Positions 11,198 through 58,291 of a stretch of 64,000 nt of DNA are shown in pieces. This DNA is from Macrophomina tecta (taxonomy: Eukaryota; Ascomycota; Dothideomycetes; Botryosphaeriales; Botryosphaeriaceae). Location of the stretch: positions 806,001 to 870,000 of the forward strand of contig JAKSGN010000033.1 of NCBI GenBank assembly GCA_024180945.1, read 5' to 3'. A program made the translations under genes and the position numbers. The notes beneath the pieces were generated by a model. It did not search any database. It was given only the letters and a program-made list of their open reading frames with translations, and was not told where the DNA came from. Position 1 is the first letter of the stretch; each line of letters begins with the position of its first letter.

Positions 11198-14100
11198 ATG
11201 GACAAGATCAAGGACATTTTGTGAGCCGAGCCCACATCCTGCATGCGGATCACCCGCCTCCCGCTTCCAGGATCGCCGGCCTTGCTGACCCTGTCTGTCT
11301 ACAGCTCGCCCGGCCACAAGCAGGATGCCGACCTGCTCTACGGCTCCCCCCAGTCCGGAAATCCTGCTACCCACGCTGCGAACACCGGCAAGCTGTCTGG
11401 CGAGGGCAGCCACCTTGCAGGCGCGAGAGACCCCGCTCACGCCCAGTCTGCGGCAGCGCCTGGCTCCGGCCCAGCAAGGTGCATTTGAGACCGCCCTCCC
11501 GCGCATGCTCGACTGACACCCCGTCCAGCACCGTCGGCACCACCAAAGCCCACGCCAAAAATGATTCGCTCGACCCTGCTAGCTCTCGTGTCTCGGCAAT
11601 GCCGTCGAACCCTGTTGCCGAGAAAGACACCGGCTTCGCTAGTCAGGTGGTAAACCCGGATGGAGCAAAATATGACGAAGCACGGTACGGTACCCGGGAA
11701 TCCGTTGCAGCGGCAATGACAGCCCTGCCAGATCGCCCAAGCCACCGTTCATTCTATCCCGACCGCTGCGAAAGACACTGGGTTAAAGAGGCAGATTGCG
11801 TAGGTCTATACCTGCGTTGCTTGCTTCCTTGCCCGGCCTTTCCGCAAACTCCTCTATACTACTTTGAGCATATCAAAAACATGGAATGACCCAGCCCTAA
11901 CTGTTTTCCAGGGACCCTGGCGACCAAAGGTACGATGAGACAAGATACGGCAACACCGGGGCCGTCGAGCCTACGCCTACTCGAAACTCCAAGGGCGGCG
12001 TCCTCGAACCCGTCGGCGGTGTCTCGCGCAGCTCCGAGCGCGGCCAGGGCATTGTAGGGGCCGAACCCAGCGCAGGTAATCTCACACCATCCGAACACGC
12101 CGATGAGGACGACATTACCGTGGCTAGTGTCAGATCCGGCGTCATCGGCGATATACCACGTTCCAAAGAGCTAGCTGATTCCGATATCCCAGTCGGCCCT
12201 GGCTCTCCCTCAAGGTCTACTGCAGGTACTAGTCATGGTGCTACTGCTGCCGATGCTGCCAAAGCTGCTGGGTCTGCCGCAATTCTCGGCTCAGGCACCG
12301 AGCGCTCCTTTCCTCTCTCTGGGGGCACGGCGAAAAACACTACTACCCAAGACCAGCAGTCCAATCTCGGGAGTACTTCTCACACTACAACTGGCGACCA
12401 CGGCACTGGAAGCGACTACAAGGGTCTTGCCGCAGCGGCAGCTGCCACTGCCTTTGCCGGTCACGAACACGGTGGCCATGGTCACAGATATGACGGTCCC
12501 AACACTGACAGCACGAACGCCGGACCCACATTCACATCTGGACCTCATGCGACAGAGACTGCTAACCGCCTTGATCCCCAAAACTCAAGTGCCCTAGGCT
12601 CCTCAAGTGAGACCACTATTCCATCGCCTCTAGGGGCTGCCGGAGCAACCCACGCCCGGACGACCTACGATGATCAAAGAGCCCCCGCGCCCCACACATC
12701 AAGCACAACCCACGCCTCGGGTGTTGGCATGCCGGGAGCTTACCCCGATTCTGCTGCTGCGACACCTGCCTATGAAGAGCCGACAAACACCACTGACACA
12801 TCTCGTGAGCATCACTATGCCCGTGATGCTGCTGTCGCTGGAGCAGGAGCTGCCGCTGCCGGAGGGCTTTATGAGGCACACAATAAGGGTTCTACGGAGA
12901 CTGACCCGGCAACCTTCACTCATGGCCCTCACAAGAGCAACATTGCTAACATTGTCGACCCCCGTGTCCTCCCCGATCCCTCCAAGATGAAGGGCCACCA
13001 CGCCCAGTCCACCGAGACTGACCCAGCTTCCAAGACTGTCGGTCCCCATTCGAGTAATGTTGCCAATGTGCTTGATCCGAGGGTTTTGCCAGAGCCGGAG
13101 AAAATGAAGCAACACACCACCGCCGGCCCCCACCATTCTGATACATTGAACCGCGTGGATCCTCGTGTGGACTCTGATCTATCTAAACAGACGAGCCAGC
13201 ACCATGACGGTCGTGATGCTGCAGTTGCCGGAGGTCTCAGTGCCGGTGCTGCCGGTGCCTATGCCGCTGCTCAGCACCAGGGCGAGAAAAACCCTTACAC
13301 GTCCCATGCCGTGGACCCGAGAGTTCATGGAAGCACTGCTACTTCAGATGTGCCATCGAGAACCTCATCAACCAAGGCAGGTTGGTTCGCAGGTCCGACT
13401 GGCTCTGCTGTTGACCCGAGCAAAGACTTGTCCGCTACGTCCGCCAGGAATGCAGGCTCCACTGGATTTGGCGGGCCTGGTGCTACTCAGTCTCCTCAAC
13501 AGCACAACCACAGCCACGACGCTGCCGTCGCCGGCGGTCTTGGTTTTTCTGGAGTGGGAGCTGGCCATGCTTACGAGCAGCATAAAGCAGATAAGGCTGC
13601 AGAGCATTACCCCGCCACGACTGCTGCCCAACAACAGACCTCCACATCCTCTACTGAGCCAAGTGGCCAACACCATTATGGGCGTGATGCTGCTTTAGCT
13701 GGTGGTGCTGGTCTGGTTGGCACTGGGGCCGCTTACGAATACCAGAAGAGAGAGGCTGAGAAAGCCGAGCGGGAGCATCCCTACGGTACCACTACTCCTG
13801 TCTCGGGCGCCACAGGCACTCAAACCAGGGCGTCTGGTGATCCTACAAGAATCTCGGGAGAAGCCAGCAAGCACCACTACGGTAGGGACGCCGCAGCTGT
13901 AGGTGCGGTCGGCGCTGCCGGTGCAGGCGCTTACGAGTTCTCCAAACAAGATGCGGAGAAGGCTGATAAGGAGCGCTTAAAAGAAGCTGCGACAGCTGAG
14001 AAGGAACATTTGAAGGAGGCAGACCAGGACGCGAAGGCCCATCAAAAGGAGTTGGAGAAGGAAGAGAAGAAGCACCTTAAAGAAGTTGAGAAGGAGGAAA

Positions 14101-14794
14101 AAAAGCACCAGAAGGAGCTCGAGAAGGAAGAGAAGAAGCATCAGAAGGAGCTCGAGAAAGAGGAGAAGAAGAAACGTGGTGGCGGACTTCTTGGATTCCT
14201 TCACCGTGATAAGGACAAAGACAAGGCCAAGGGGGAAGAGAAGGTAGTCGATCCGACGACTACCGCCGATAAACGTCATCGTGCCGAGGAGGCCGTCGGT
14301 GCCACTGGCGTTGCTGGAGCCGGAGCAGCTGCCTATGAACATCATGAGAATGGCAAGCATGACCGTAACAGGCTCCACAAAGACCCGCCAGCGGACCATG
14401 TCCGTGGACATGGTGGTGAGCATTACGGCACCGATGGCCGTACTGGACGGGCTGGTGCCGTGTCTGGTCTACAGTAAGTACCCATCGAACCCCAAGCAAT
14501 CCTGTGTCTTTGACGAACCTCGATAGGGGAGCACGTGCCGGCGAGCCTAGGGCCGTTCAATCCGGTGAAAAAGAGGGCGTTGTTGTCGAGCCGCACACTG
14601 GCTTACCCATGAACGTCGGCAAGTACGGTCCTGGCGCTGGTGGCACTGATGGTAATGAGACTATCCATGGTCTTCATGGTCATGGTCCTGGAACTGATGA
14701 GCCTGGGGTCAATCTTGCTTCTCAGGGCAGCGCCCAGGGGGGCAACATCGGTACGGATTGGCAGGGCATCAAGAAGGCAAATACCCCTTATTAA
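11198..14794 (+). CDS. long modular hydrophilic LEA-like protein (five exons)
   Basis: Exons are 11198-11220, 11305-11478, 11529-11684, 11912-14473 and 14527-14794, giving 1060 aa. Introns are 84, 50, 227 and 53 nt with GT-AG ends and matching phases. The N-terminus MDKIKDIFSPGHKQDADLLYG is created by splicing and is typical of a Pezizomycotina family often annotated as LEA-like or cell-surface protein. The protein has no membrane segment. It carries about four GPH-x-SN-x-AN-x-x-DPR motifs, about six Ala/Gly-rich blocks of the form HHYGRDAAxAGGxG...AYE, and a Lys/Glu helical block near residues 690-760 built from KELEKEEKKH units. The end is Gly-rich (GTDWQGIKKANTPY). By analogy with LEA-type proteins it may protect cell components during drying or other stress; that role is inferred. 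The long third intron is the least certain boundary. Confidence 0.8.
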
Positions 14795-37748: not shown

Positions 37749-40530
37749 AATGGCAGGGTGCCGATCGGGTCGAAACCCAAATTCGTCTCACACGGGTCGA
37801 CCGCTCACCGCGCCATGAACGCAAGGTATATGCCCGTAGCCACTGCGTTCCATTGAACGCAAAGAAGTGGTCTCCAAAAGGGCCAACGGAAGTTCCTGGA
37901 AGCTCTCCGGTCCTGGCGCAATGTCTAAATTCCGTTCCTACCGCTTTCGGCAGCGGGCCGAAGCGATTTTGGGAACACTTCTTTTTTCTTTCTTTTTTCT
38001 CCAGGGTTGATCCTGTTTCGACCGCAGAAGCTTAGCGCGTGAATAACCTATGGCTCCAAACATATCGAGTAAGGAGCAAAGGAAACAGTCATAGCAGGCG
38101 GCGGAGTGGGCGAGCGGTGAGACGAGGTATCGAAGGATGCATGGCGCAAGGTGGTGTTGGGGGCTTTATGAGGCTATTGTCCAAAGAGTTGTTGTGTAAG
38201 AAAGACCCTGGTAATTTTTTCGACGCATTAAACAATTGGAGGATTGAAAATCATATACTTATAGAACTCGGACGCTGAGGACTGGTCAACGTCCATTGAG
38301 GATGAGGTGGTAGCGGATCTAGACGCGCGGGAAAGCAGTGGTTGCTCGGGCAAGTACCTGCGGCTGCATGATTCGCAAGTACTCTCCAGATCCGATGGAT
38401 TGGATACTTTGCAGTATGCAGCCTGACACAATCCCGGCACACGTGAAGGCTGTCTGCACAAGAAAAGTTATGTCGGAACGGATGGGATTTGCGGACCCCT
38501 GCAGCGCAGAAGTCGTTGCCGCTCAACACCTCCCGCGCCTTTCTCATCCGCGCGCACACCTGCAAGCAGTCAGCGCCGGAAGGAACAGGAGGAACGCATG
38601 CGCGCAGCCAGCCAGCAGCAAGCAGCCACATCCAACGGGCCATCCGCATCGGCTAGAGGAGCAGTCTCAGAACGTGCTCGTCTACGCAAAACCAACCGCC
38701 TCTCGCAGCGCTCCCGGCCCCCGCTTTCCCGCCGCCTGCCGTTTGCCTCCTCCTCCACCTCTTTTTCTTCCTTCCGCTGACATCGCATGCGCCTCCAGCA
38801 ATTGCCGAGTCAGTGGTCCAAAACCCTTGAACCCCGAAGCAGCACCCATCTGCGCGGCCGGGCATGGTGCATGGCGCGCCTCTCGTCCATGCGGCGTCGG
38901 CAGCGCGGCTCCATCCCGCCGGCCGCAAACCGGCCACTAGCACGACGACACGGGTGTCCCAGCAGCACCATAACCTGCAGCAACATCTTCCACCAAACAC
39001 TCCACCCCGGCGACAGAACACCAAACGGAGCAAAGCCTCTCTCTATCTCTGCTCTCTGACTCGTACGAGCGTGATATTTCCCGGAGCCCATCCCGCATTC
39101 GCGAGAACATGTCCTCCCACACCTTGCCTGCAGCGCGAGCGTTGCCACACTGCTCCGTGGCTACCGGGCATTCCCCACAGAAGTCGCCATCCGGCGCCCA
39201 GATGTGCCCGCACGCGCGCGTGCGGAAGATCCGTGTCACGACGAGCGATGCCCCGTCGCGGCGGTTCCCCCCCACCCCCCACCTCTTTGCCATGCTTCCT
39301 CCTTTGCTTTCCTTGCGCTGACCCGGCCGGCTGGACCCAGGCCTCTTGAACGTATCTTCCCTTCTCTTCTCAAAAAATAATCCCCCATCGCTGCCTCTCC
39401 GACACGTGTTGGTTGTTTTTTCTTTTCCCCGCCACGACAGGACACGACACGCGATGCTGCAGTCACCAAAAGCGCTTTCCCGCTGCACCTACCTCGTTTC
39501 ATGTAGTGTACATGCAAACGCGGGCAGCTCAGTCCAGGCCCGTCTGTACATGCAGCGGACACGGCACTTCTAGCCGCTCGGAGGCCGTCTCTACAGCCAT
39601 CGCCGCTAGATCGGGCCCCCCATGCTTCGAGAGAGGGAGCGCGTGTGAGGAGGCGAGCTGTCTGTTTGATCGCCGGAGATTGGACGCTAGATACTGCACG
39701 TACACATATGTGGATCTCATTCCTGTCCTCCCCGAGAGGCGGAGGGGGGTGGGGGGTGGTAAGACGACTGGCCAACGACGGCGTCAAAAAAGCGCGTGGT
39801 TGGGAGCTAAGTATGTATGGATGTACGTGTACGCGAGGGCATGTTTGTCCCGACCCGAGAAGTGAGTGTAAAAGAAAAGAAGCGAGGATGGATGTGTAAG
39901 TGCATTGCAGCAAGCGCAAGTGCAGTTCTTTCATTGCCAGCCAGCCAGCGAGTGGCGTAGATTAGGCTTTTTTCTCTCTTTCGCTCTACGGTAGCCAGGG
40001 TAGCCTCTTTCCCTCCCTTTTGCCTCCCCCTGTCTTTCATGTCCGACGAGGAGGCAAGGGGTTGGTTGCGGCGGCCAGCCAGCTAGCAGCGCGCGTAACA
40101 AACAGCATAACAGCATGGAGACTAAGTCGCGTGTAGTTGCGAATTCCAAAACAAAGTTCCAGCGAGCAGTAGACGGGATAACCAAACGTGAGAAAACAAA
40201 GGCGCGAGCGGGTAAGACAAGAAAAGAAAAAAAAAATCACAAAGCGCCGTGAACAAGGGTAGTCATCGAAGTGGTTGCCCTGTCTCAAACGTCAAGCCGC
40301 CCCAGAAGCATAAGATGCTGAAAACAAAAGGCGCTAGAGCAGGGGAGTGGGGAAAACGCGAGCACACAATAATCCAGAGTTGTCCTCGCTCAGATATGGC
40401 GGTGGCCCGGCGCACCTCTGTGCGTCATGCGCTTGCCTGGAGTGATATGCAAGCATCGAGACAACTGCTTTGGTGATAGAGCAGTAGTAGAGGTCTCAGC
40501 TGCTCTGCGAGTGGGAGGGCGCGATGGCAT
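37749..40530. other. intergenic, no supported gene
   Basis: This 2.8 kb contains many overlapping open frames, especially at 38300-39900, that are Arg/Pro/Ser/Cys-rich on both strands and lack family features. I see no gene, no large repeat and no clear promoter, apart from the 3' flank of the gene that ends at 40531. Confidence 0.45.
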
Positions 40531-43538: not shown

Positions 43539-45790
43539 ATGTCCACCGACTACAACTATGACGAACAGGTACGCGCCGTTTGCGCCCGGCGCCCGCACAA
43601 CGCCTGCCCACTGACTGCGCCAACAGGGACAATTCTTCCCCTACTTCGTCATCACTATCACCGGCCTGGTCACCATCCCGGTAACCATCTCGCTGCTCAC
43701 CCGCAGCAAGGATCTCGAGAACACCGCCCCGAGAATACAGTCCGACTTCACTCCCGAACATGTCGATCTCATCGATGGCCAGCGCAAGAAACTGCGCCGA
43801 CAGGAGCGCAAGCTGGGCAAGTTTCTGCTCGCCCTCGGCGGCTGGGTAGTCATGGCTTGGATGGCCTACCTCATGGTGGTGACCGCGCGCACCGTTCCCA
43901 AGATCTGGGATCCCTACGACGTCCTCGGAGTTTCTAGGGTAAGGTTGCAAGCTGCGTACTGGCCGACCTGTTACTGACTGCCTGCAGTCTGCCACCGAAA
44001 AAGAAATCAAGTCGTTCTACCGCAAGCTTTCCATCACCAACCACCCCGACAAAGTCCAGCCCGATCCGTCAAAGAATCTGACCATGGAAGACATCAATGA
44101 AAAATGGGTCGAATACACAAAGGCGTTCAAGGCGCTTACTGACGAGGAAGTCCGCAACAACTACTTGCAGTATGGCCACCCCGACGGCAAGCAGAGCTTC
44201 AGCATTGGCATCGCACTGCCCAAGTGGATCGTCACCGAGGGTCACGGCAGATACGTCTTGCTTGGTTATGGAATCGTCCTCGGCGTTTTCCTGCCCTACC
44301 TGGTTGGCAAGTGGTGGTACGGTACTCAGCGTGTCACCAAGGAAAAGGTTCTGGTCTCTAGCGCAGGCAACATCTTCAAGGAATATAAGCCTGATCTGAG
44401 CGAGGGTGGCGTCCTTTCCGCTCTCAGCACTGGAACTGAATTCGAAGAGGCGTTCAAGGGACACAAGGCAGAGGCTGGTCTTTCCAAGATCGAGTCGAAG
44501 CTCTTCCAGGAAGGCGAGCTGTCTGCTCTCGCTGGAGGTCTCAGTGCCAAGGACCGTCAGACCTTGGAAGAGCTGGATGAAGGACCGCGCAGGAAAGCTC
44601 TTGCTTTGCTTTGGGCCTATCTTGGACGCGTGGAGCTTGACGACCAGACCCTCAATGCCGAAAAGTTCGAGGTTGCACCTATCGCTCATAAGCTCAACGA
44701 CGCCTTCTTCGCTGTCGCACTTGCTTACGGCAATACCCAACCTCTCCTGGCATCCTACCACACCTCCCAGAATATTCTCCAAGCCATTCCTCCGCAGTCA
44801 TCGCCTCTACTTCAGCTCCCTGGTTTCACTCCTGCCGTCGTTCGTGCAGTCGAGGGTGAAAGCGCGCGAGTTCGTATGACCGTTCTGGAATACTTGAGCC
44901 TTCCGGCTGAGGAGAGGCGCAAGCGCGCAGTTGGTCCTGGTCTTCTGTCGGAAAGCGAGTATGCCAACGCTGAGAAGGTTGCCCGTCAGCTCCCGCATCT
45001 GCATGTCGAAAAGGCCTTCTTCAAGGTCCTCGGCGAGAAGGTCATCATTCCCAGCAGCTTGGTTCAGTTCGTTGTCAAGGCTCGTATCATTCCTCCGGGT
45101 TCTACCAATGTTCCCCCGGTCAACGAGAAGGATCTCGAGGATGTTGATCCCAAGGAAGGTGATCTGGACGCTCTCCACGGCCGCAAGAAGGGTGTTGAGG
45201 CGGAGGAGGCCAAGAAGGCCGAAACCGCTGGTCAGCCTCCGCTCGCGTATGCTCCGTACTTCCCCAGGGATCACTCTCCCAGGTGGCACGTTTTCCTCTC
45301 CGATACCAGGCAAGGCAAGGTCGCGGTACCTCCATTCACCTTCACCAAATTCGATAAGCCGCTTTTTGATGAGCAGGGCAACCCAACCTACAATGTCCAG
45401 ACGCTGAAGATGCAGTTCGGTGCTCCTCCCCAACCTGGCCAGTACAAGTTTACCATGAACCTTGTGTGCGACAGCTACGTCGGCATGGACACGAAGATGG
45501 ATGTCGTTCTCAACATTGACCACCCTTCGAAAGCGGCCGAGATTGAAGAGGAAGAGGATATCAGTGAGCCGGAAGAGGGTAAGGATTCACCACACAGCAA
45601 CCATGTTCACAGCATCGCTAACACAAGAGTAGATACCATTGCAGGGCAGATGGCTGCCATGAAGGGCGGTGAGACTAAGAAGCCTAAGGCCCGTAAGGTC
45701 GAAGAGTCCAGTGGCAGCGACACCGAGGGTGATGAGGACCTGTCGGATACGAGCGAGACCGACACCGACACCGATACCGATGAAGAGTAG
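43539..45790 (+). CDS. sec63: ER protein-translocation subunit Sec63
   Basis: Exons are 43539-43568, 43627-43938, 43988-45578 and 45633-45790, giving 696 aa. Introns of 58, 49 and 54 nt have clear splice sites; the last has a GCTAAC branch and its length is divisible by three, so retention would not break the frame. Three membrane segments are visible (YFVITITGLVTIPVTISLL, LLALGGWVVMAWMAYLMVV, LLGYGIVLGVFLPYLV). Between the second and third lies a J domain facing the ER lumen (WDPYDVLGVSRSATEKEIKSFY, then the HPD motif in TNHPDKVQPD). The rest is the cytosolic Brl domain and a very acidic tail (TDTDTDTDEE) that in yeast binds Sec62. Sec63 recruits the lumenal Hsp70 to the Sec61 channel for post-translational import. 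Confidence 0.96.
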
Positions 45791-46860
45791 TGGATCAAGA
45801 GCTGCGGCCTTTTTTAAGTGTATGATTTGTATGCATTGGTTAGGCGTTTACGAGTGAAGAAGGCTGCTGCCCTGCTCTGCTCTTACTGGATACTTCCTAC
45901 TCGTGTTGTGCGTCCCCTTTTGAAGGGCGGCATTTCTATTCAGCTTTGAAGACTTGGGAGTAGTTTTTCGACCGCAAAAGAACATTGTACAGAACCGGGG
46001 AAGGGAAGTTGGTTGCGGAATCTTCCTTTTCGAAAGCTCTAATGCAAATTTCAAAGCCGTGTAGTCAGGACCATTGTCGCAGCGGTGTTCGTGCCTCAAG
46101 CCTCAACGTGGACGGGAGCTCGACATTTCTGATGCATTGTCGGCGTGGAGTGGTCTAGACTTCGCTTTTTGGTAGCAGCGCAGCAACGCCATCACCAACC
46201 ACCCCCTCACTCGCTATCCTTTTCTGGTGACGTACCCGGCAAGGTACAAGCTAACGGCTCCTCTAGAGCGCCTCATAAACAGCCAAAGGCCATCGGGAAC
46301 AAAGCCACACACGTGTTCAATCCACGGAAGCTTTCCGAACCATGGCGCTCTCAACTTTGGGGCGCTTGGATTCGCTAACCCATTGAAGTATCTATATCCC
46401 CAACACATGCGTATTGAAAAGCCACTGTGAAACGATATCGTTAGTTACCACCACGGTCCGTTTCGCATTTTGTCGATCGATAGTGGCTTTTTCTGGTCGT
46501 CGCCACTGCTAGGCTGGAGTGGGCTTGATGGCCCGGCTGTTTCCCCGGTGGGCGCGCGTCGCCTTTTCCTCGGCCTGCCTCTTCGCATCCTCTCCCCTTT
46601 TCCATCCTTGGGTCAAGCTATTATAGTTGTCCCGTTGGCAATAAGTACCCACGTTCCGCCGCTCACTTTGGCGCTAGTAAGGAGGGAGGAGGGGGAAGAC
46701 GCTCGAGCAAGGTTCTGGAATCCTGCCGGCGCCACGACGGCGCGTGGGACTACAGTAACGGGGGCACTCTACATCACCGCGAGGGCTTAGCACACGTGCC
46801 TTCGTCTTCTCTGGTAGATCGCGCGAGGCTTTTTTTTGTGTTCTTTTTGTTGTTCTGGTA
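45791..46860. other. intergenic, no gene seen
   Basis: The 3' flank of sec63 followed by about 1 kb without recognisable genes or repeats. Confidence 0.5.
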
Positions 46861-46934
46861 GGATTCGATGGATTCGATGGACTGGTGTGATCGAAGGATG
46901 AAGGATGCTGGATGCTGGATGCCGGATGCCGGAA
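46861..46934 (+). repeat. GGAT-based minisatellite
   Basis: Short units are repeated in tandem: GGATTCGAT twice, GAAGGATGAAGGATGCT, then GGATGCT and GGATGCC units ending near 46934. It lies about 40 bp before the first box of the dispersed-box array. Confidence 0.75.
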
Positions 46935-46971
46935 TTCTTTCTGGCCACAGCTAAAAAGAAGGGAGTTGACG

Positions 46972-49900
46972 TTGGACGTCGCAAAGAATCCTTCCATTGA
47001 CGGGGTTGTTCCTTTTTGCTTATTGTGGCGGCTGGCGATTCGTCAGACTTTCTTTTCTTTTCGTTCCCGAATCCTGCTTCGTGTTCTCGAACACGCCAAA
47101 CCACCCCATGAGCAAGAGAAAAGCCATGTGCGTCTGGTGGCTTTTAGAAGCGTTCTTGCTTTCTGCTCATGCTCGGACGTAGGAAAGAATCCTCTGACTG
47201 CACCAGGGTGAAGTGGCTGGCGGAGTGACTTGCACACACGGTGCGTACATGTACCGTCTCGAACTTCGTGAGCGGCTACGGTACTTCTTGGGCCCCTTCG
47301 TGGTCCATGCCAGGCCCCATTGGAGACTCGCTGCTGTTAACTTTGAACGTAGCAATGGATCCTTCCATCGCTGTGGTTCTGGGTAGCTGCGGAGATCGGG
47401 GACTGGTTGTCCACTGTTCACAAAAGTACATGTGCTTCTGTGGGGTTGAAGCATGGAGCCATGGTTATGCAGGCTTCAGGGCTTCCCATTGTCCTCTGGC
47501 TGCCCGGAGAGTATCTTCAGACGTAGCAAAAAATCCTGCCATGGAGTCTTACGCGGTGGCTGACAGCCCAGGGTGTCGGAAGCCACTCCGTCCATGTATC
47601 AGAGCCATCTCAAGGATTCTGGATCATTTTGGACCCTCGAGCGCAGACCATCTGGAAAGGTGAACAGACTCCACATTGGACGTAGCAAGAAATCCTACCC
47701 GAATATGCGGTCACCAGTGCCTCCAACCCGTTGAGTCCTGGTTATGCTGTCTCGCAATCCGGGCCGACAATAGTTTAAATCGGCTTATCCGAGAGGCGGG
47801 TCGGGGATGCGTACTTTAGTCGTCTCACGGACTAGAGAGCCGGGCAGAACTACGACAGGCTGACGGCACCGCGAGTTAGCTGCATTAACCCTCCAGCCCG
47901 TCCCATTTTCCCACGGGTTTTTTGCCACTATCATTATCGCCTCATCAATAAGGCAGGGGGATTCATTACAAAATCGAACGCAGGTAGGAATTCTCTCCGG
48001 AGTTCACCGTACTATGGCTTCTGCGGCTGACGACCATTGGTTACATCTACGCTCCACTGCAGGCTCTTCATGGTTCGATAGCTCATCCGGAAGATTGTCC
48101 AAGAGGTGCTTGGGTACCATCAGTGTTTGGTTGACCTGGGACCCTCGAACGTAGGAAAAATCCTGCCCATGTTGATGTAGCTGAAAAATTCGTGGGACCC
48201 TAGTCGTATGGATGTTCCAGTGCGTGGGCCACACTGTCAAACGTGCCCAGCCTCGTACTGCTACTATATTCGCCTTTCTGAAGGCCCGAAAAAACAGAAC
48301 TTTGGACGTAGGAAATAATCCTGCCGAGTCCACCGAAGCGTTGCGACGAGTTTAGCAACGCCACCCCCCTGGATTGCGTATAAAACTTCTAAATCAAGAC
48401 GGAGGTTTGGCCCATGTCCGGGCCTGCTAAGTGCGTTGTTTGATGTATCGTCAAACGTAGGAAAGAATCCTTTCATATGACGGTGTGTCATGGAGCCTGT
48501 AGGCGTCAACCATGGCGGAGAACGGGAGAAGATTGGACATAGGAAAAAAAAATATCCACGAATCGCCACGAGCCTCTTCCTGTGAGGCTCAAGACCAAAA
48601 ACGCCGCCCGTATCTTCCCACACACAGAGAAGCTAACGCCGAACCCTCTGTCGCTTTCTCATATGCTGATTGACAGAACTTTGAACGTAGGAAAAAATCC
48701 TTCGCATGCAATCACTATCCCAACTCTTGACGGTTCCGACGCCGGAGCAGCCTCTACACATTCTTCCACGTGTATGGCGCATGGAAGCACAAGCCCCTTC
48801 GCTTCGACAAGACCAAAGCGAAGAACATTGAACATAGCAAGATACCGTCCCTTGTCAGTATTTCCCGCCATCGAACCCGTTATTCCCCTGCTCCGGACGG
48901 ACAATCCACTTTCTCTTCCGAAACAGGAAAATGGTACGGCTCCCCGGCAAACACCTACACGCAGTTTCATAATCGACCCCGCATAAATGCCGTGGTGTAA
49001 TGAACATCTCCGTACAAACTCTGCTACAGCGGTCGGGCGGAAGCCAGGACGCGGCTGAAGTTACAGGACGGCGGTAGTCGTTGAGGCGTCCTGACCGGCG
49101 GTCTGCCGCGTCCCCTTTACACAGCACCATTCCTTCCGTTCCAGACTTGGCTAACATTGGCCGCCTCAGCAAACATCTCGGCGTTAATCAGCTGTCAGGG
49201 CTGCTAACACGAAGGCAAAGCGTGCGAATGTCCCCTGATTCCTCATGGTGCTGCTGGGAAACATCTCAGTATTTCCAAGGGTATGGTGGCTTCCGCGCCA
49301 GCTAGGGACTCTGGCATCGCCGTTGGCTTTGCAGTAGGGTATTGATTCAAGACTGTCATACATGGGGGCCAGGAATACCTTCGAACGGCTGAGATCATCC
49401 TTCGATATCACCCTGAGCAGTGGCTGACAGGTCTACGCGGCGCTATCAACTTTAAAGTTATTCTGTCGATGACGGCTTCTCCGTAGTGCTCCTGATTTAA
49501 CTGGTTTGTGCGCCGGGCCATGGGACGTGGAGAACGCAAGACGTTCACTTCTTGTGGATCTTCTAGACTATACAAGGCTACGGACGAGAGCAACGGTGTC
49601 TCGTCCGGCACCACTCGATGCTAAGTAGAGACAATATGTGGGGAACTTTAAACGCACCGGCCGGTTGAAGTGAAAGCATGGTTGAACGTCCAAAAGACTC
49701 CTTCCGGCGGCCGAGGTCCACAGTGGCGCGGAGCGTTCAAACACGAGGCTCAGGCCACAGCTCTTTACCTCGACGCCATTGTGGGCTCCGCTGAGGCTTT
49801 GGTGCAACGCGGCTCACACCTGGCTGTTAGGTGCAACACAGGCCAGGTAAGATCGAACGTCTGAAAGGATCCTTCCGAACTGCTGGGTCTGCAGTGCTCG

Positions 49901-52900
49901 CGAGAGAGCGCGTGCCAGGCCTCGGCGCTCCAGCCACGTGGGATTGGCATGGGTGATATACTCGGGTTCCGCCTCACTCTTCAGCACTCTGTCCCCATCC
50001 TCGAACGTCGCGAGGAATCCTCTGCGCATCCAATAGATTAAATGGCCGAGACTATTGCCCATTCAGGCAGTCACAGAGAGGATACAGCTGCTCTGTCAGG
50101 CAAGCTCCAGGATCTGCAGGATCGCGCTCCTGGCCCTTTTAGCCTTTTTCCCGTCCGGCAGACGCAGACGGTGGGAAAAAGCAAAAATCCACGATAACAG
50201 AGCAACACTGTCGGACGTCTGAACCGATCCTTCAGGAGCGCTGAGTCGCAGATGCTGCTGCTTCTTTTTTCTCACCGCCACGCCAGGAAGCCACCTCACG
50301 CACCACCCTTTCCCCACAGGCCCCGGTCCGCGCCGGCGCGCCTACGTCGTGCTCTTCTTCTCACACGAGTAGCGCATCGCCTATCCTCGCACATAACGCT
50401 CTCCCCAGCGCTCCAGGTTGCGTATGTCAAGCGGTGTCGGCGAAATCCTCTCGGTGTTACTGATTTCGCCGCGAGGGCACTGCTACAAGGGGAAACGCCC
50501 TGGAGAGTTTGGAACACTTTGCGGCCGTACCAGCTGCGAACGCTGCGCCAACTGCTGGATTGTGCATCTCACACGGTTCACGTCTGCTGCCATAACTTCG
50601 AACGTCTACGTACCCTTGCATTCTCCCCATCCGGCATTGGCTGGAGTGCCTTAGTGCCCGACCACCACCGTAGCCCTTCGGTTGCGCAAATACGCACACA
50701 GCTAAACACCCTTTCCCTAGCGGGAGTGCATGCAGGGGGCTTCTTTTGTTCTTTGCTTTTGCCCCCGCCTCCGCAATCCGTCGTACTCCGCACAACTTCC
50801 AACGTCTAGGGGATTCCTTCGACGTATTTGTGGAAGAAGAGCGGTGCGCCTTGCTGGCCTGCCATCCGAATTGGGGATTGGTGTGCTGTGGTAGTCCCGC
50901 AGAACTGTCCGGTCCCTTCTAAACTTTGAACGTCTGGAGCTTCCTTCGGGGGGGTGCAGCAACCCGAATTTGGCCGCGGGCATGACTGCATTGAGCAGTA
51001 TACCGGGATGTCTAGATGCCAATCTCGAATCCTTGACGGCTCGCGCCCTGCATCTGTTCGGGGTGTACCCTGCTGAAAGCATGGGTGGCCTGCAGTAATC
51101 TTTTGTGCAGTGATGGGCGAGCGTAAGCTACTGGCTGTAGACATGGAGGGCGGCAACACGGACTCGGGACCAAGGCCCCTGCCAGCCACAGGGCCTTCAA
51201 TATGTCATCTTCATCATCTTCTTCGAACGTCTGAATTGATCCTCCCCAGGCACCATGCAAGAAACAGTATGACACGTTACTGTATCAAGCAACCACCGAG
51301 GAATATGTACGCCGCTCAACACTACCGGCCGCCTCGACCTTTGGCAGTAGCGGTTTCAGTCGCAGTATAGCGTTCTTCTAACGTCTGGAAAAATCCTTTG
51401 ATCCTTCTCGACTCCAAGCCCTGCTCAGCTCAGCTCCACTCACGACTCGATTTCCCGGTTACGCAGGCCGGAAGACGTACGATCTTCCCAATCCCTGGCA
51501 ACTTCGGACGCCGTCCCACCCCTGCCTGAGCCTGTTGCACGATCTAGGCAAGATTTACCGCAACCCAAGTGGGTCAACCAGGCTTTATTCAGACAATACC
51601 CCCTTCATGAAAACGCCGGCAACTATTCAAGGCGTATATTCACTGCACCTGAGTGCCCAGCCTCTGTGCTCCACATCAACATCGAACGTCTGATTGAATC
51701 CTTCTGAAGGTCTTATGCTTGAAATGAAAAAAAAAAAAAAAAAAGAAGAAGAAGAACGGTGGCTCCCGTGGTAATTCTATGCCTCAGTAGTCTCAGCAGC
51801 CACTATCTCACCAAGGCCGCAGCAAATATGGCTTCCGCCCGACTCTAGAGATATGACGCAGGAATGCGCGCCGGCGACAATCCTCCCGCCAGCCATCGAC
51901 GAGGTGGCGGTTCGCTTGTCTTGGTTCTCGAAGGCCCAGAACAAAGAGGACTGGAGCACGACACCTTCCACGCTTCCAGACACGCCCGCTCCGGACCAAC
52001 TACTGTCCGGTAGCGACGGACCGAAGCCGCTGCATGCGCAGATTGCCCAACCACCATCAAGCAGGAGGATCATTTGTGTAAATGGCCCGTGCGGTAGCGA
52101 TGCAAATGCCTCACAGTTGACGCTTCTCTTAGCTGGCGGGGCCGCCAGAAATCGCTACTCCTGCGACTGCCAGGCTTGTACCAGAAGTCCAGTCAACGAT
52201 CACTTTTGGCAGCCTCAGAGAATGGCTCGGCACACAGTGGTGACGCTGGTCTCATCACTTCAAACCGTTTGCCCCTCTCAACGGAGAGTCTGCCCGAGTC
52301 CCCGTGATTTGGACAAGCGCACCCAGGTGCGCGGTTTCTCCAAACGGCTCCATCGCGTTAGCGGACCAAAAGACGCTATTTGTGGGATGAAGGGGACGGC
52401 GCGCAACCAAGGGAGGCCAACCAAGGAAAACCAGACTCGGTAGTCTGCCGCCAAGAGTGCGGGCACTTCCCCACGAGAGAAGCCGCACCAACTCAAATCC
52501 TCCTCGATGCTGAGGACAGCTTGAGGGGCGAGGCGGATCAGCTTCGAACGTCTGAAATATCTCTCGGCGGTATTCCTTCTGCGCTCAATCACACTAGAAA
52601 AGACCGCCTCAAACTTAGACGCCCCCTCCATCACTCCGTCCCACGTGGCCGCGTGGCGTTTTTGGGACGAAGTATACTCTCACCGCAGAGCCATATCCCA
52701 CGTGTCCTCCGAGTTGGTAGAAGCATGAGCAAAAGGAGCTGCGGTAGAAGCAACCACGTGGGTCCCTCCGCAAGCTGTCTCGCCGCAGCTCGCTACTCTC
52801 CGCAGCCTGGGCCTCTCGCCAAAGCCACCATCTCATACAGCCCGGCTCGGTAACCTCCACCGTTCATTCCCCTTAACCATCGGACAATTCCGTATTCCAA

Positions 52901-53490
52901 AAAAAAAAAAAAAAAAATAGACCCCGAATACCAACCCTACTACCTTCCAGAAGCCTCGGCATAAAGTTATACATCCACAATGGCATCTTCCGGTTCTCCA
53001 ACACGAAACAGTCACACCACCAATACTCGCGAATCTAGATTCACCCTCCATGCTCGAACGTCTCATGACACCTTCCGATCCCCTACCTCTCACCAAATGT
53101 CGCCTGAAGGGGCACACGGCGCCGTCGCCCTCCCCACGAAACGTTTTAAACGCGTATTTCCTTCGAACGTCTGAAAGGCAACCTCCGAAGTGAGCCGTGC
53201 CCATCTCTTCACAACTGACACTACTAGAGAGGAAAAAAAAAAGAAAAAAAAAAGAGAGAGAGATAGAGAGGAACGCTGACCTAACAACGGCTCCTCTCCC
53301 CTGAGATTCCAGCGACCCGCTCCCCAACGTGACGCAGTCACTACCAGCACCGTACCAGTGACTGTCAACCAACCCGTACACCACGCCATCCAACCTCAAA
53401 CGCCCAAACACCCCCTACCGCCCTGCCGTCCCAAACAGGAAGCACAACCAACAGCAACAACAACATCGAACGTCTGAACGGCCCTCTCCG
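46972..53490 (+). repeat. array of degenerate ~24-nt boxes separated by unique DNA
   Basis: A box with the form TYGRACGT, then MKGAAARAATCC, then TTCC recurs on the plus strand only. Clear copies start at 46972, 47173, 47343, 47517, 47676, 48145, 48302, 48451, 48533, 48681, 48828, 49381, 49682, 49853, 50001, 50211, 50598, 50798, 50926, 51223, 51377, 51682, 52544, 53054, 53163 and 53466. Weaker copies start near 47974, 49000, 49170, 49258, 49521, 50427, 51005, 51504, 51852, 52663 and 53323. Distances are often 147-175 nt or about twice that. Many boxes are preceded by AACTT or AACAT. The intervening DNA is not visibly repeated and has no gene. Box positions fall in all three frames, so this is not a protein repeat. 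I know no named element with this structure. Confidence 0.8.
53226..53273 (+). repeat. polypurine tract (A runs with GA repeats)
   Basis: The tract is purine only except for one T, with A runs followed by GAGAGAGA. It lies within the last part of the box array, between the boxes at 53163 and 53466. Confidence 0.8.
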
Positions 53491-53807
53491 CCTCCACCCA
53501 CCTAAGCGCACCTAAGCGCTCTTACCACCTATAAGCAACCCACTCTCCCGGGAGAGAGGGGAAAAAAAAAAACCGAAACGAAACGAAACAAAACCACAAG
53601 CTAACCGACAACCCAAAGCTCCAGACCGAAACCGCACAAAACCCCTCGTATGTAAGGAACTGGCAAAACAAGCAGCAGCATCCGCGCATGAGTAAAAACA
53701 CAGGGCTGCGAGCGTGCACCGAGGAAAAAAACAAAAAAAAACCCCCCGCTCTCGAGCCGCACAGATGTCGCGCGCAGGACGCTCATATTGTGAAAACAAG
53801 ATCGAGG

Positions 53808-53816
53808 AGGAAGAGG

Positions 53817-53859
<43 letters not shown>
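53808..53859 (+). repeat. GA microsatellite
   Basis: An uninterrupted (GA)n run at 53822-53859 is preceded by AGGAGGAAGAGGG-type purine sequence, making a continuous polypurine strand. Confidence 0.9.
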
Positions 53860-53861
<2 letters not shown>

Positions 53862-54064
53862 GGGGAGGGGTGTGCCTACTGGGGTGGCAGGGGGCGAGCG
53901 GGTCAACCCGTCGCAGCCGGCCGTGCCGCGCCGCACCGCCATAATTAAAAAGTGGATAATATGGGCATCTGGTCATGCAGAGATGGGGAGATTCGGAGAG
54001 GGAGAGAGAGGGAGAGCGGGGGAAATTTTACCGTAATTGCGGTGGTCGTAGCGAGAGGTAGGAT

Positions 54065-54118
<54 letters not shown>
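54065..54118 (+). repeat. compound CA-GA microsatellite
   Basis: A CA run (54065-54078) passes directly into a GA run ending at 54118. Confidence 0.9.
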
Positions 54119-54122
<4 letters not shown>

Positions 54123-54463
54123 GTGTGTCATAGCGCCCCAACAATGCACATCCTTCATCGCCAGACTATCATTGCCGTCCGTCGGTTGAGAGAGCACAGG
54201 CGTCAAGGGCCGGTGGGGTGACGTATTTGCGCCGGATGGGAGAGAGAAGACGAAGAAGAAGGAAAATGACGGCGACGGCGACGTAGCTCTGCAAGAATAA
54301 AACTTCGATCTGGCACGTTGATAATATGCAACAGAAGTCTAATGAAAAGCAGAGGAAACGAAGGTTCCCTTGTGAAATAGCTCAAAGATGTTGATCGGGA
54401 CAGACACATCGCGTCTTTACAAGAACAGAAGAAGAGAAGTGAGGCTGATGTAACTGACGCGGC

Positions 54464-54477
54464 AAAAAAAAAGAAAA

Positions 54478-54526
<49 letters not shown>

Positions 54527-54530
54527 AAGG
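54464..54530 (+). repeat. A-run plus GA microsatellite
   Basis: Two A runs separated by a G are followed by GA repeats with occasional GATA units. It is nearly pure purine for 67 nt. Confidence 0.85.
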
Positions 54531-55267
54531 GGCCATCTGCTCGTTTCGTTTAGATGGTGTATGCGAAGACATAAAGAGTTGGGCATTACTAATAACGGGA
54601 TTTCTGATCGCGTTCGCAAGAAAATGGTTATCAAAGCCAACCTAGCTGTTGCAAAGTACCAAATCAAACAAGAGAAATCATCCATGCATGTGATGTTCGT
54701 CTGGTTTCTCCGAAAAAAAAAAAAAAAAAAAGAGAAATCTAGTGCTGAATTTTAATAACACGTTATAAAGCATCTCGCAAGTCTGCGTTGTGGATCAACT
54801 TCATCTGCACTGGAGCGAGGCACTTTGCGCAATAGATGGAAGGCCATGGAAAGTATGAGGTGGAAAATAGATATTGTAGAGGTAAATAGGAGGACCTCGT
54901 ATAGGACAAAGAATAAAAGGTAAGCCCGGGTTCCGCTATGAAACAGAAAAGATACATCAAACCCAGTCTTAATCCGTCGTACTTGCCCTTCCGGACCATC
55001 TCGTTCCCATCTTTCATATTCATTCCCGTTGCATCAAACCAGATAAACTGTAAGCATTCCACCTCCAGAACCTGTTAAACACCCAACTCTCTTATGCCTT
55101 ATGGAAACAGAAACTCATTGTTGCTCATGGTCAGAAAAAAAGAAGATAAAGGCCACACCGCCCCAGGCGGCATGGGGAGGTCCATGAAAGGAAAAATTTG
55201 TGCGTGCAAACGACCGTCTTCGCTTTTCTCGCCGGGTCCCAGATAAAACAAAAATCGTACAAGATGC

Positions 55268-57347
55268 TCATTCCTCAGCGGGAGGCGGAGGCGGAGCGTC
55301 TGAAGTGGCCGATGGAGTACCTTGAGGGCTCGAGACCGCATCGAGTGGAGCAGCGTGTAATGCAGGCTTCTGACTCTGTGCCAGCTTGCCGCTCCTCTTT
55401 TTCTCTAGCGCGTCAATGACCCATTGTGCGACTTCCGGATCCTCGGGCGCTTCCTTGCCCGTGTAGTCCACGTGGAGGCCGGAAGCCGAGGCGTCTTCCT
55501 CGTTTTCTTCCTCCTCCTCGGTAATTGTTGCGGGTTTTAGGAGGGGTGCTAGCCACGCGTGTTGGAGAAGCATGGCGTAGGTGGGGCGGAGGTTAGGGAT
55601 CTTGTTTAGACAGCCGCGTACAAAGTTCCGTGCGGCGTCGGAGAAGCCGTCGGCGGGGAGGTCCGGAGGCTCGCCGTCGACAATTGCCTAGTTTGACGTC
55701 ATTCGCTGATCTAGACCGCTTGGGCCATTTCACTAAACAAGGAAAATTCAGACTTACGCTGAGCTGGCTGAAAATGTTGTTGTACGTCTCGGGCGGGTAA
55801 GGGTATCGGCCCATAGCGCATTCGATGATGGTCAAGCCCAGACTCCAGATGTCGCTCTGCACGCTGTACGTGCCGCCGCCGGGGTTGGCGCCAGCCTGCG
55901 CAACGCCTCCGCTCGATATCCGCTCGGGGGCCATGTAACTCTGACAGCCGATATTTGTCTTCGCTATGCTGGCGACAAGATTGCCACTGACGCCGAAGTC
56001 GCAGATTTTGACTTGGCCCTTGGTGTTGATCAGGATATTCGTAGGCTTTACGTCGCGGTGAATGATGTTGTGATCATCCTTGAGCGACTTCAGACCCATT
56101 GTTGTGGCGAGCGTGATTTTCCGCAGCACATTCTCCGGAATTCCCTCTCCGTACAGCTTATCTATCGATCCGCCGTCCATGAACTCCATGCAGATGTATA
56201 CCGCTCCTTCCTGGAAGAAGGCTCCGTAAAAGTCGATGATGAACGGGGATATGCAACGATGCAGGATGTCGAGCTCCATGATGATCGCGGCAAACTTGGC
56301 GTCGTCCAGCTCCAAACGGATTTCCTTCATGGCCATGACCATGCCTGTTGTGCCTGCGGTCGCCTTGGTGGACGTTGGGCTCGAGTCAGTTGCGCCATCG
56401 AGTTTGTTTGCTGGCGAACCAGGAACAGCAGGCGTCGAATGGGCCTTGTTTCCCGCCAACCCAAGACCGGGCCGTCTTATCTGTGGCCGGGCATGCCTGA
56501 CCTTGTACACGGTGCCGTAGTTGCCTTTGCCGAGCTCGTCGAGGGTGTCCACTTCGTCGAGTGATATGCTAAAACTTGACCCGCTAGCAAACTCAACGCC
56601 CTTATTGGTGAGGGTTGCCTTTCCTGCGAAGCGCAAGCTTCCCGTCTCCTTGTCCAGAAATTCGGCGTACTTGTCCATCATCGAGCCGCCATTGGGCTGA
56701 GCCCCAGGATTTTGGGCACCGGCAGGCTCGCCTGACGACCCGTTGATATCTGACAACTTGAGGCCTGGTCTCTTCCTGCCGCCGGGAGCTGGGCTCGGCG
56801 TGCCATTTGGCTGCGAGCCGGGGAGACCGCCGGGCAACACCAGGCCGCGCTTCTCTGCCAATGAGGGCTTGTTCGCGCCGCCGGGGCCGCGCAGGCTGGG
56901 TACTGCAGGTGCCGAAGGGAAATGGCCGATACCAGGCTTACCAGGCTGGCCGGGCAGTTGGAAGTTCTTGGGGACGCCTCCAGCGAAAGCTCCGCTGGGG
57001 GATTGCGGCATTGAATTTTGAGGAGCGGCAGGGGTGGCGCCGCCCTGTGGCCGAGAGAGCTGCACGGCCTTCATGCGCTCAAGGATGTGCGGGGGGAGGC
57101 CAGCGCCGTGCCTGGAGGCTGTGGGAAGTTTCGCACCGGGCTGGCGAGCGGCGTTGAGGGCGCCCAAGGGCGTGGACGAGGCCGTCATGCCAGACATGGT
57201 GGGGGCGCTCGACACAGAACGGCCGATGGGCGGCTGGGCCACCGGAGACGAAGGCGTGGGCGAGGGGAGGCCGGGGCTCGAGGGGGACTCGAGCGGCGAG
57301 GAGACGTCGGACAGCTGGTCCTCGTCGGGGGTTGTGGCAGCAGCCAT
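55268..57347 (-). CDS. pbs2: MAP kinase kinase Pbs2 (HOG pathway)
   Basis: Exons are 57347-55758 and 55687-55268 (intron 70 nt, GTAAGT donor, CTAG acceptor), giving 669 aa. The first ~260 residues are Pro/Ser-rich and disordered. The kinase domain then runs from about residue 265: glycine loop GKGNYGTVYKV (~272), a ~50-residue insert before the catalytic Lys of VMAMKEIRLE (~339), HRDVKPTN (~430) and DFGVSG (~450). The activation loop VASIAKTNIGCQSYMAPERI has the Ser/Thr pair phosphorylated by upstream MAPKKKs and is diagnostic of Pbs2 rather than Ste7 or Mkk1. Splicing joins the domain to AIVDGEPPDLPADGFSDAA. The tail is acidic and Pro-rich. In fungi Pbs2 activates Hog1 under osmotic and other stress, acting in the cytoplasm. 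The open frame upstream of the ATG is Arg/Pro-rich leader. Confidence 0.95.
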
Positions 57348-58291
57348 TGCGACGGTCGCAGGCAGCAATTGGCGGGGCGGCGGAGAGGACGTGTCGCGCA
57401 GAGGAGGGATGGGCGGCGGGCAAGAGACTCGCCGAGGGAGGGCGTGGGGAGAGAGGGGGGGAGGCGAGGGAGCAGGAGAGAGGGTCGCGATATTCTGGAG
57501 CGGGAGGTGGAGTGTGGCGGTGCGAAGGGGAGTTGGTGGAAAAGGTGAGCCAGGCGTGACGTAGCGCGCGCGCGCGGGAGGTGGTGTTACGGAGTGGAGA
57601 GCGGCGGCGGCGGCGTGGGGACTTGGTGCAGCGACGACGCAAGCCGGCGAAGCGAGCAAATGGCAGCCGGGGCCGAGACGGCGGAGGCCAGCGCAGCCGG
57701 GGCAGCAGGCAGGTTTCCGGCAGCGGACGAGTCTCACCGCGCCTTGAAAGCAGCGCTGCGGCCTCACCACTGACTGATCGCCGCGTGCGCGCAGCAGCGT
57801 GCGACAATCGAGCCCAAGGCGGCGAGCGGGGCACGTGACTGCGCTCAACACGGGCGCGCCGGGGCCAGGCGGGAGCGCGGGCGCGGGCGAGGGCGTGGGC
57901 GATAGGGAGGCCGTGACAGGTGGGCCGTGGGCAGGCGATGGGCGAGTGGCGCTGCAGCTGGGCGTGGGCCTCTGCTGGCGCCGCCGAGCCTGCCCTGACG
58001 CCGTCGCACGCCCCGCCAAGCCCTGCGCTGCTCAGCGCGACCGACACCGTAATTCTTGATTCCTGCCTGCACCGCCGCGCGTCTAGTCCTACCTATAAAC
58101 CCTTTCTCGCCGTGTCGACGCCGCCTCCGCCGCCGTCCGTCGCCTCTCGACTGCGCCTGCCTGCCCGCCTGCCCCCGTCTCCCGCTGCAGCGCTCAAACA
58201 ACACCTGCGACACGCCAGCTTCCCGCCCTCCGCCGCCCTCCCCGGCTTCCACGCCCAAACGCCTCTCGCGCCAGAGCGGCGCGCTTCAAAA
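57348..58291. other. divergent promoter shared by pbs2 and a transporter gene
   Basis: This GC-rich 944 bp separates the two start codons. Open frames cross it on both strands but are Arg/Ala/Pro-rich and lack homology features. A pyrimidine-rich leader precedes the ATG at 58292. No TATA box stands out. Confidence 0.55.

Follow-up and report, generated by a model that had tools for sequence, protein, structure and literature searches.

The box array between SEC63 and a MAP kinase kinase gene

The window analysed here is a stretch of 64,000 nucleotides (C27:806001-870000) of the assembly of the plant-pathogenic dothideomycete Macrophomina tecta, which comprises 54.1 Mb in 37 contigs. Within it, a 9.6-kb gap separates the 3' ends of two genes: on the left SEC63 (44084..45790, plus strand; an ORF of 568 amino acids with Pfam PF02889, 97% identical to the Sec63 of Macrophomina phaseolina and 85% to that of Diplodia intermedia) and on the right a MAP kinase kinase gene (55367..57530, minus strand; Pfam PF00069), whose product has MAPKKs as its best solved relatives and which we take to be Pbs2-like. 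Most of this gap is occupied by an array of short boxes, located at 853-859 kb along a contig of 2.49 Mb, which need not represent a complete chromosome. Because both genes end towards the array, it is the promoter of neither. Short GGATTCGAT/GGATGC repeats lie immediately ahead of the first box (46869-46933), three AG dinucleotide runs fall in the interval from the array to the kinase gene (53812-53859, 54078-54118, and 54486-54526), and a coding-type repeat of 33 nt is present at 14045-14171 of the window, inside a 785-residue ORF that has no Pfam match.

An iterated position weight matrix (PWM) locates 29 boxes, all on the plus strand and spanning 46967-53489 of the window; this is the largest array found. 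A 34-column PWM scores 28 boxes at 13 or above, 27 at 18 or above, and 24 at 22 or above. In leave-one-out scoring with a 29-column model, against a background formed by the rest of the window on the plus strand and the whole window on the minus strand (121,166 positions), 25 of the 29 boxes exceed the background maximum and 28 exceed its 99.99th percentile, the exception being the box at 50600 (2.8). The same-strand array of the original prediction is thus real, though its 26 clear and 11 weaker copies reduce to a supported number of 25-29, and the box is about 28 nt long rather than ~24 nt. Its strand bias also stands against shuffled sequence: TYGRACGT occurs within the array 19 times on the plus strand and once on the minus strand, compared with a mean of 0.8 and a maximum of 4, counted over both strands, among 500 dinucleotide-shuffled sequences. 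The outcome that would have refuted the prediction did not appear: nothing of comparable density is found elsewhere in the window, where the remaining 57.3 kb holds five plus-strand and one minus-strand TYGRACGT and the core PWM scores above 10 at no place in the other 57 kb.

Two box sub-types meet within the array at about 49 kb, marked by ..CGTAGGAAA.. on the left and ..CGTCTGAAA.. on the right. In the PWM listing, the left sub-type (46967..48851; boxes mostly ..GRACGTAGSAAANAATCCTTCC) begins with box 1 at 46967..46995 (leave-one-out score 27.6, as for all scores in brackets below), followed by boxes 2 at 47168..47196 (29.0), 3 at 47338..47366 (32.9), 4 at 47512..47540 (28.4), 5 at 47671..47699 (25.2), 6 at 47969..47997 (17.1), 7 at 48140..48168 (23.1), 8 at 48297..48325 (30.4), and 9 at 48446..48474 (31.1), the weak box 10 at 48528..48556 (13.2), the best copy, box 11, at 48676..48704 (36.5), and box 12 at 48823..48851 (19.3). 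The right sub-type (49152..53489; boxes mostly TTCGAACGTCTGAAARGATCCTTCCG) starts with the weak box 13 at 49152..49180 (10.5) and continues with boxes 14 at 49376..49404 (23.4), 15 at 49677..49705 (25.8), 16 at 49848..49876 (34.6), 17 at 49996..50024 (27.8), 18 at 50206..50234 (16.1), and 20 at 50793..50821 (21.6). Boxes 19 at 50593..50621 (2.8; core alone 19.8) and 21 at 50921..50949 (13.0; core alone 21.2) keep the core and have lost most of the suffix. Further right are boxes 22 at 51218..51246 (29.0), 23 at 51372..51400 (23.7), 24 at 51677..51705 (29.9), 25 at 52539..52567 (21.1), 26 at 53049..53077 (21.2), and 27 at 53158..53186 (19.2), the weak box 28 at 53391..53419 (15.1), and box 29 at 53461..53489 (25.8).

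The conserved columns extend from -7 to +21 around GAACGT; beyond these limits, the cut-off is passed by scattered columns only. Mean pairwise identity is 56% in the box, compared with 25.8% over the next and 25.6% over the previous 29 nt, and a flank identity of 26% is the chance level. The spacers resemble one another little more than shuffled sequence does (mean local score 10.5 against 10.1; 153 pairs from 18 spacers of 60-250 nt). A tandem satellite was rejected on these grounds, the spacers not being alignable above shuffles and TRF calling no tandem array within the box array. Codon-usage calling, rerun with the array left out after a first version had included it in the null model, gives no CDS with a score of at least 20 from 45787 to 54573, and Pfam matches are absent from ten ORFs (119-196 amino acids) that lie inside the array or directly past its ends. 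The intervening DNA is therefore unrelated and gene-free, as had been proposed, and the fall in identity at the box edge agrees with the further proposal that selection acts on a short box rather than the array being a uniformly diverged satellite; such selection we infer from paralogous boxes of one genome.

Several established classes of element were compared with the boxes and rejected. In alpha satellite, CENP-B boxes (consensus TTCGNNNNANNCGGG) recur as short boxes at steps of about 171 bp. A short recurring box is shared with the array, but the likeness that had been drawn to alpha satellite does not extend further, since the array has no homologous ~171-bp monomers and the only window match to the CENP-B consensus lies outside it at 37782 (chance level 0.77). 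The Pol III B box, with consensus GGTTCGANNCC, is absent from the window, and ARAGORN finds no tRNA in the window or at 16 loci. Reading the box as a coding repeat (N-F-E-R) meets with stop codons (TAA in the core frame of the box at 51379), no coding bias, and no Pfam domain. Repeat-induced point mutation was set aside because the indices are ordinary, with a GC content of 0.545-0.64.

Sharp box edges, unique spacers, and polar growth would also suit boxes of ~28 nt that were inserted singly by a mobile or recombination process, in the manner of integron- or CRISPR-like growth. A weak similarity between the sequence before and after boxes points the same way (identity 0.31 against 0.257, z 3.9, for the 10 nt preceding the core and the sequence 36 nt further on in 100 boxes, this lag being the best of 50). 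Clean target-site duplications were, however, not found, and the spacers match no phage or plasmid records and nothing else in the genome except for a 35-nt simple stretch, which makes insertion of this kind highly improbable. A CRISPR-like array as such was rejected on the same lack of phage and plasmid matches and on repeats that are only 56% alike, and a transposon reading found no backing in the tests either.

The constant core and the typed second half across the genome

The first full-box patterns found little outside C27 and suggested a single-locus box; the original prediction likewise described one isolated array. Core patterns overturned this: the core is dispersed genome-wide, and the second half of the box changes by locus. 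Exact matches to the first half (CAAC.TCRAACGT and three further bases) number 51 in 54.1 Mb, compared with 4 for the reversed control, and other core patterns give 46 against 7, 150 against 62, and 85 against 30. Genome-wide, the constant half reads CAACTTCGAACGT followed by CTG, CGC, AGC, or AGG. About 0.3 Mb of the genome was read in sequence, and the remainder was scanned by pattern only.

Five arrays of at least five boxes are confined to one strand: the window array (C27, plus, 29/29 boxes), L026 (C6:2.226-2.230M, minus, 14/14), L044 (C5:3.986M, minus, 10/10), L054 (C5:874-878k, minus, 6/6), and L045 (C7:3.985M, plus, 5/5). Boxes lie on both strands at L023 (C5:879-886k, within the cluster C5:878.6-888.5k) and L027 (C6:3.307-3.311M), and small groups or singles are found on C2, C3, C10, C27, C31, C32, and C37. 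Adjacent boxes no more than 1.5 kb apart share their strand in 67 of 80 pairs (28 from the window). Around an MFS gene on C5, L023 and L054 together form a 15-kb stretch (C5:873.6-888.5k) in which boxes on both strands and with different endings are interleaved, in contrast to the one-strand arrays. Box spacings at L044:3663-4553 include 86, 86, 171, and 172 nt, multiples of 86, and a 31-nt match at 90% that is distinct from the box connects L022:4582-4612 with L026:417-447. Among 95 core boxes, one falls inside called CDS, which makes up 24.8% of the same stretches. No shared gene theme emerges near the box loci among Sec63, MAPKK, DNA ligase, NAD kinase, tRNA synthetase, and RGS genes, nor does one appear when two fungal transcription factors, MFS, dioxygenase, NIPA, and ATP sulfurylase are included.

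Of the 55 box spacings below 400 nt, 18 form a cluster at 140-180 nt. No helical or nucleosomal phase is supported among the 15 periods tried, apart from weak signals at 12 (p 0.03) and 80 (p 0.049). The cluster of spacings, the 86/172-nt steps in L044, and short repeats of 28-77 nt inside the loci L044 and L026 could be taken as traces of an ancient satellite or of duplication on a local scale, in which case the boxes would be a functionless remnant. Neutral decay would nevertheless not be expected to leave so sharp an edge to the box, where identity falls from 56% to 26%, and the same core is present at unlinked loci whose spacers are unrelated. We accordingly see hardly any likelihood that the boxes are merely such a remnant.

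The second half starts 2-9 nt after the core, and its sequence depends on the locus, whereas the core is the same everywhere. It is ATCCTTCC in the window array, CGGCCGT in all or nearly all 10 boxes of L044 (gap 7-9), and GAWTCG-like in L026 on C6, L054 on C5, and one box on C7. Endings at other loci are looser and, judged by eye, GTTCCG-, GCTTGGCTGC-, or GCCACA-like. Inside single arrays (L044 and L026), the gap between core and suffix differs by 1-3 nt. All 11 places matching the GAWTCG type with at most one mismatch fall in the C6, C5, and C7 loci; a scan at three mismatches totals 147 against 152 for the reversed control, the signal being present only at low-mismatch places. Since this type is found on both C6 and C5 in stretches that match over only 29 nt (local blastn), the suffix is kept without its spacers. 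The CGGCCGT and ATCCTNCS types each cluster at one locus and also occur singly outside their own arrays: CGGCCGT follows the core at 7 of 19 places in L044 and at 12 elsewhere, a total equal to the reversed control of 19, and ATCCTNCS at 9 of 71 places in the window array and at 62 elsewhere, with a reversed control of 38.

Over the 26 nt that follow the core, local-alignment similarity amounts to 7.01 within loci and 5.41 between them (z 16.6; 96 boxes, 16 loci), a value reached in none of 2000 label shuffles. Because L022-L033 were chosen for likeness to the full box of the window and their seed boxes lean to its suffix, the comparison was rerun without the window, seed boxes still included, giving 6.99 within and 5.45 between loci (z 11.8; 70 boxes). 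For the core, the same comparison yields z -1.9 with the window and 0.6 without it. The flanks give z -0.4 to 1.5 with the window and 1.4, 3.1, 1.7, and 2.3 without it (-28 to -2, z 3.1, p 0.0015; +70 to +96, z 2.3, p 0.013), a slight within-locus similarity that suggests some recent local duplication.

This typing also bears on whether each box might be the promoter of a short unique transcript, like the Ruby motif for nematode 21U-RNAs. Unique spacers, polar boxes, and same-strand spacings that are always at least 68 nt would fit such a role. Against this, nothing in the Ruby system corresponds to the typed second half, a second motif at a fixed distance is absent (no column cluster lies outside -7..+21), and T runs on the box strand are not enriched in the window array, numbering 16 compared with 26 A runs. 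We regard promoters of small transcripts as very unlikely.

Possible roles of the boxes

The main rival to a binding element places the boxes in RNA: the arrays would be lncRNA genes, and the box a motif in their RNA to which a protein binds repeatedly. In fission yeast, DSR motifs on meiRNA lure Mmi1. Five arrays with a strict same-strand layout are consistent with such genes, as are their independence as gene-free units, with the window array and L044 each sitting between two 3' ends, and a variable core-suffix gap, which suits single-stranded RNA. In addition, 12 of 17 box groups are oriented towards the next called gene's 3' end, a hand count (one-sided binomial about 0.07) that is suggestive only. 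Evidence at the level of RNA structure argues in the other direction. Across 100 boxes, the two flanks pair no better than after permutation, with z values of 0.1 to 1.3 that lie on the wrong side, and a hairpin loop carrying the box was rejected on this result; mean unit-folding z is -0.52 on the plus and -0.50 on the minus strand, with no strand difference (control 0.05). Intron and splice-site signals in the arrays are not in excess over shuffles, no Rfam family is found in the array, and the other loci yield one sub-threshold snoRNA match, at L045 outside its boxes. At C5 and C6:3.3M, moreover, the boxes are not confined to one strand. Taken together, we consider lncRNA genes a somewhat unlikely explanation, if a serious one.

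What the sequence shows is a box that is conserved while its spacers are unrelated, and that is polar within arrays, bipartite, typed, noncoding, and dispersed. The reading that we favour, with roughly even confidence, is that of a dispersed bipartite element with one common and one typed half, whose polar clusters are putative sites for a sequence-specific DNA-binding complex. Given that boxes lie on both strands at C5:878.6-888.5k and also occur as singles, a DNA site fits better than one long transcript. A common factor would read the constant half of the box, and the typed half could be read by a partner or by the variable domain of a paralogous family. The many copies in gene-free space between 3' ends might then load a chromatin focus at each locus, which could mark it for regulation, nuclear positioning, or pairing. 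The varying core-suffix gap would be unusual for two rigidly joined DNA-binding domains, and clusters of transcription-factor sites do not typically show such strict polarity. To our knowledge, the common core matches no known motif and has no known binding protein.

A more specific form of this idea, which we think quite unlikely, is a fungal chromosomal address system in which polar arrays would serve as barcodes, each with a universal and a locus-specific half, by which homologous or co-typed loci find each other or anchor in the nucleus. If real as read, the boxes would offer a concrete handle on locus marking along the chromosomes of filamentous fungi, and their sequence would be a ready bait for fishing out the binding protein. 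We know of no description in fungi of a universal half-site joined to a locus-typed one, in up to 29 repeats of one polarity in gene-free DNA, and no report of such arrays was found in the portions of open-licence PMC papers covered, Macrophomina genome papers included. Other Macrophomina isolates, 11-12 and Al-1, are publicly available, as is Hi-C for the species (PMC6829926).

Comparison with known systems

The pairing-centre motifs of Caenorhabditis elegans share a constant part. Among the boxes, the GAWTCG type is found on C5, C6, and C7. Pairing centres carry 12-bp motifs read by the HIM-8/ZIM zinc-finger proteins (PMC7140621) and share with the present arrays a clustered short motif whose type varies by locus or chromosome and of which one type can serve two chromosomes. 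They differ in that the boxes include several types on one contig and dispersed singles, belong to a fungal host, and, in the window array, lie at 853 kb of 2.49 Mb, unlike pairing centres near one chromosome end.

Clusters of homotypic transcription-factor sites likewise repeat a single site many times in noncoding DNA, but one orientation across 6.5 kb and a locus-typed half-site set the present array apart. With the C. elegans Ruby piRNA clusters, the arrays have in common a clustered conserved motif and unique sequence between copies; the features described for Ruby in PMC4015492, a core of 8 nt, a spacer rich in A/T, and a constant distance of roughly 40 bp, are all missing from the boxes. 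The meiRNA/sme2 locus of fission yeast (PMC6898681) is similar in being a fungal intergenic locus with a repeated short motif, independent of its neighbours. By comparison, the box is bipartite, much longer, and typed in its second half. Without claiming membership in either group, we would place the box arrays closest to clustered type-specific sites, as in the nematode pairing centres, or to the repeated motifs of an lncRNA locus, as in sme2.
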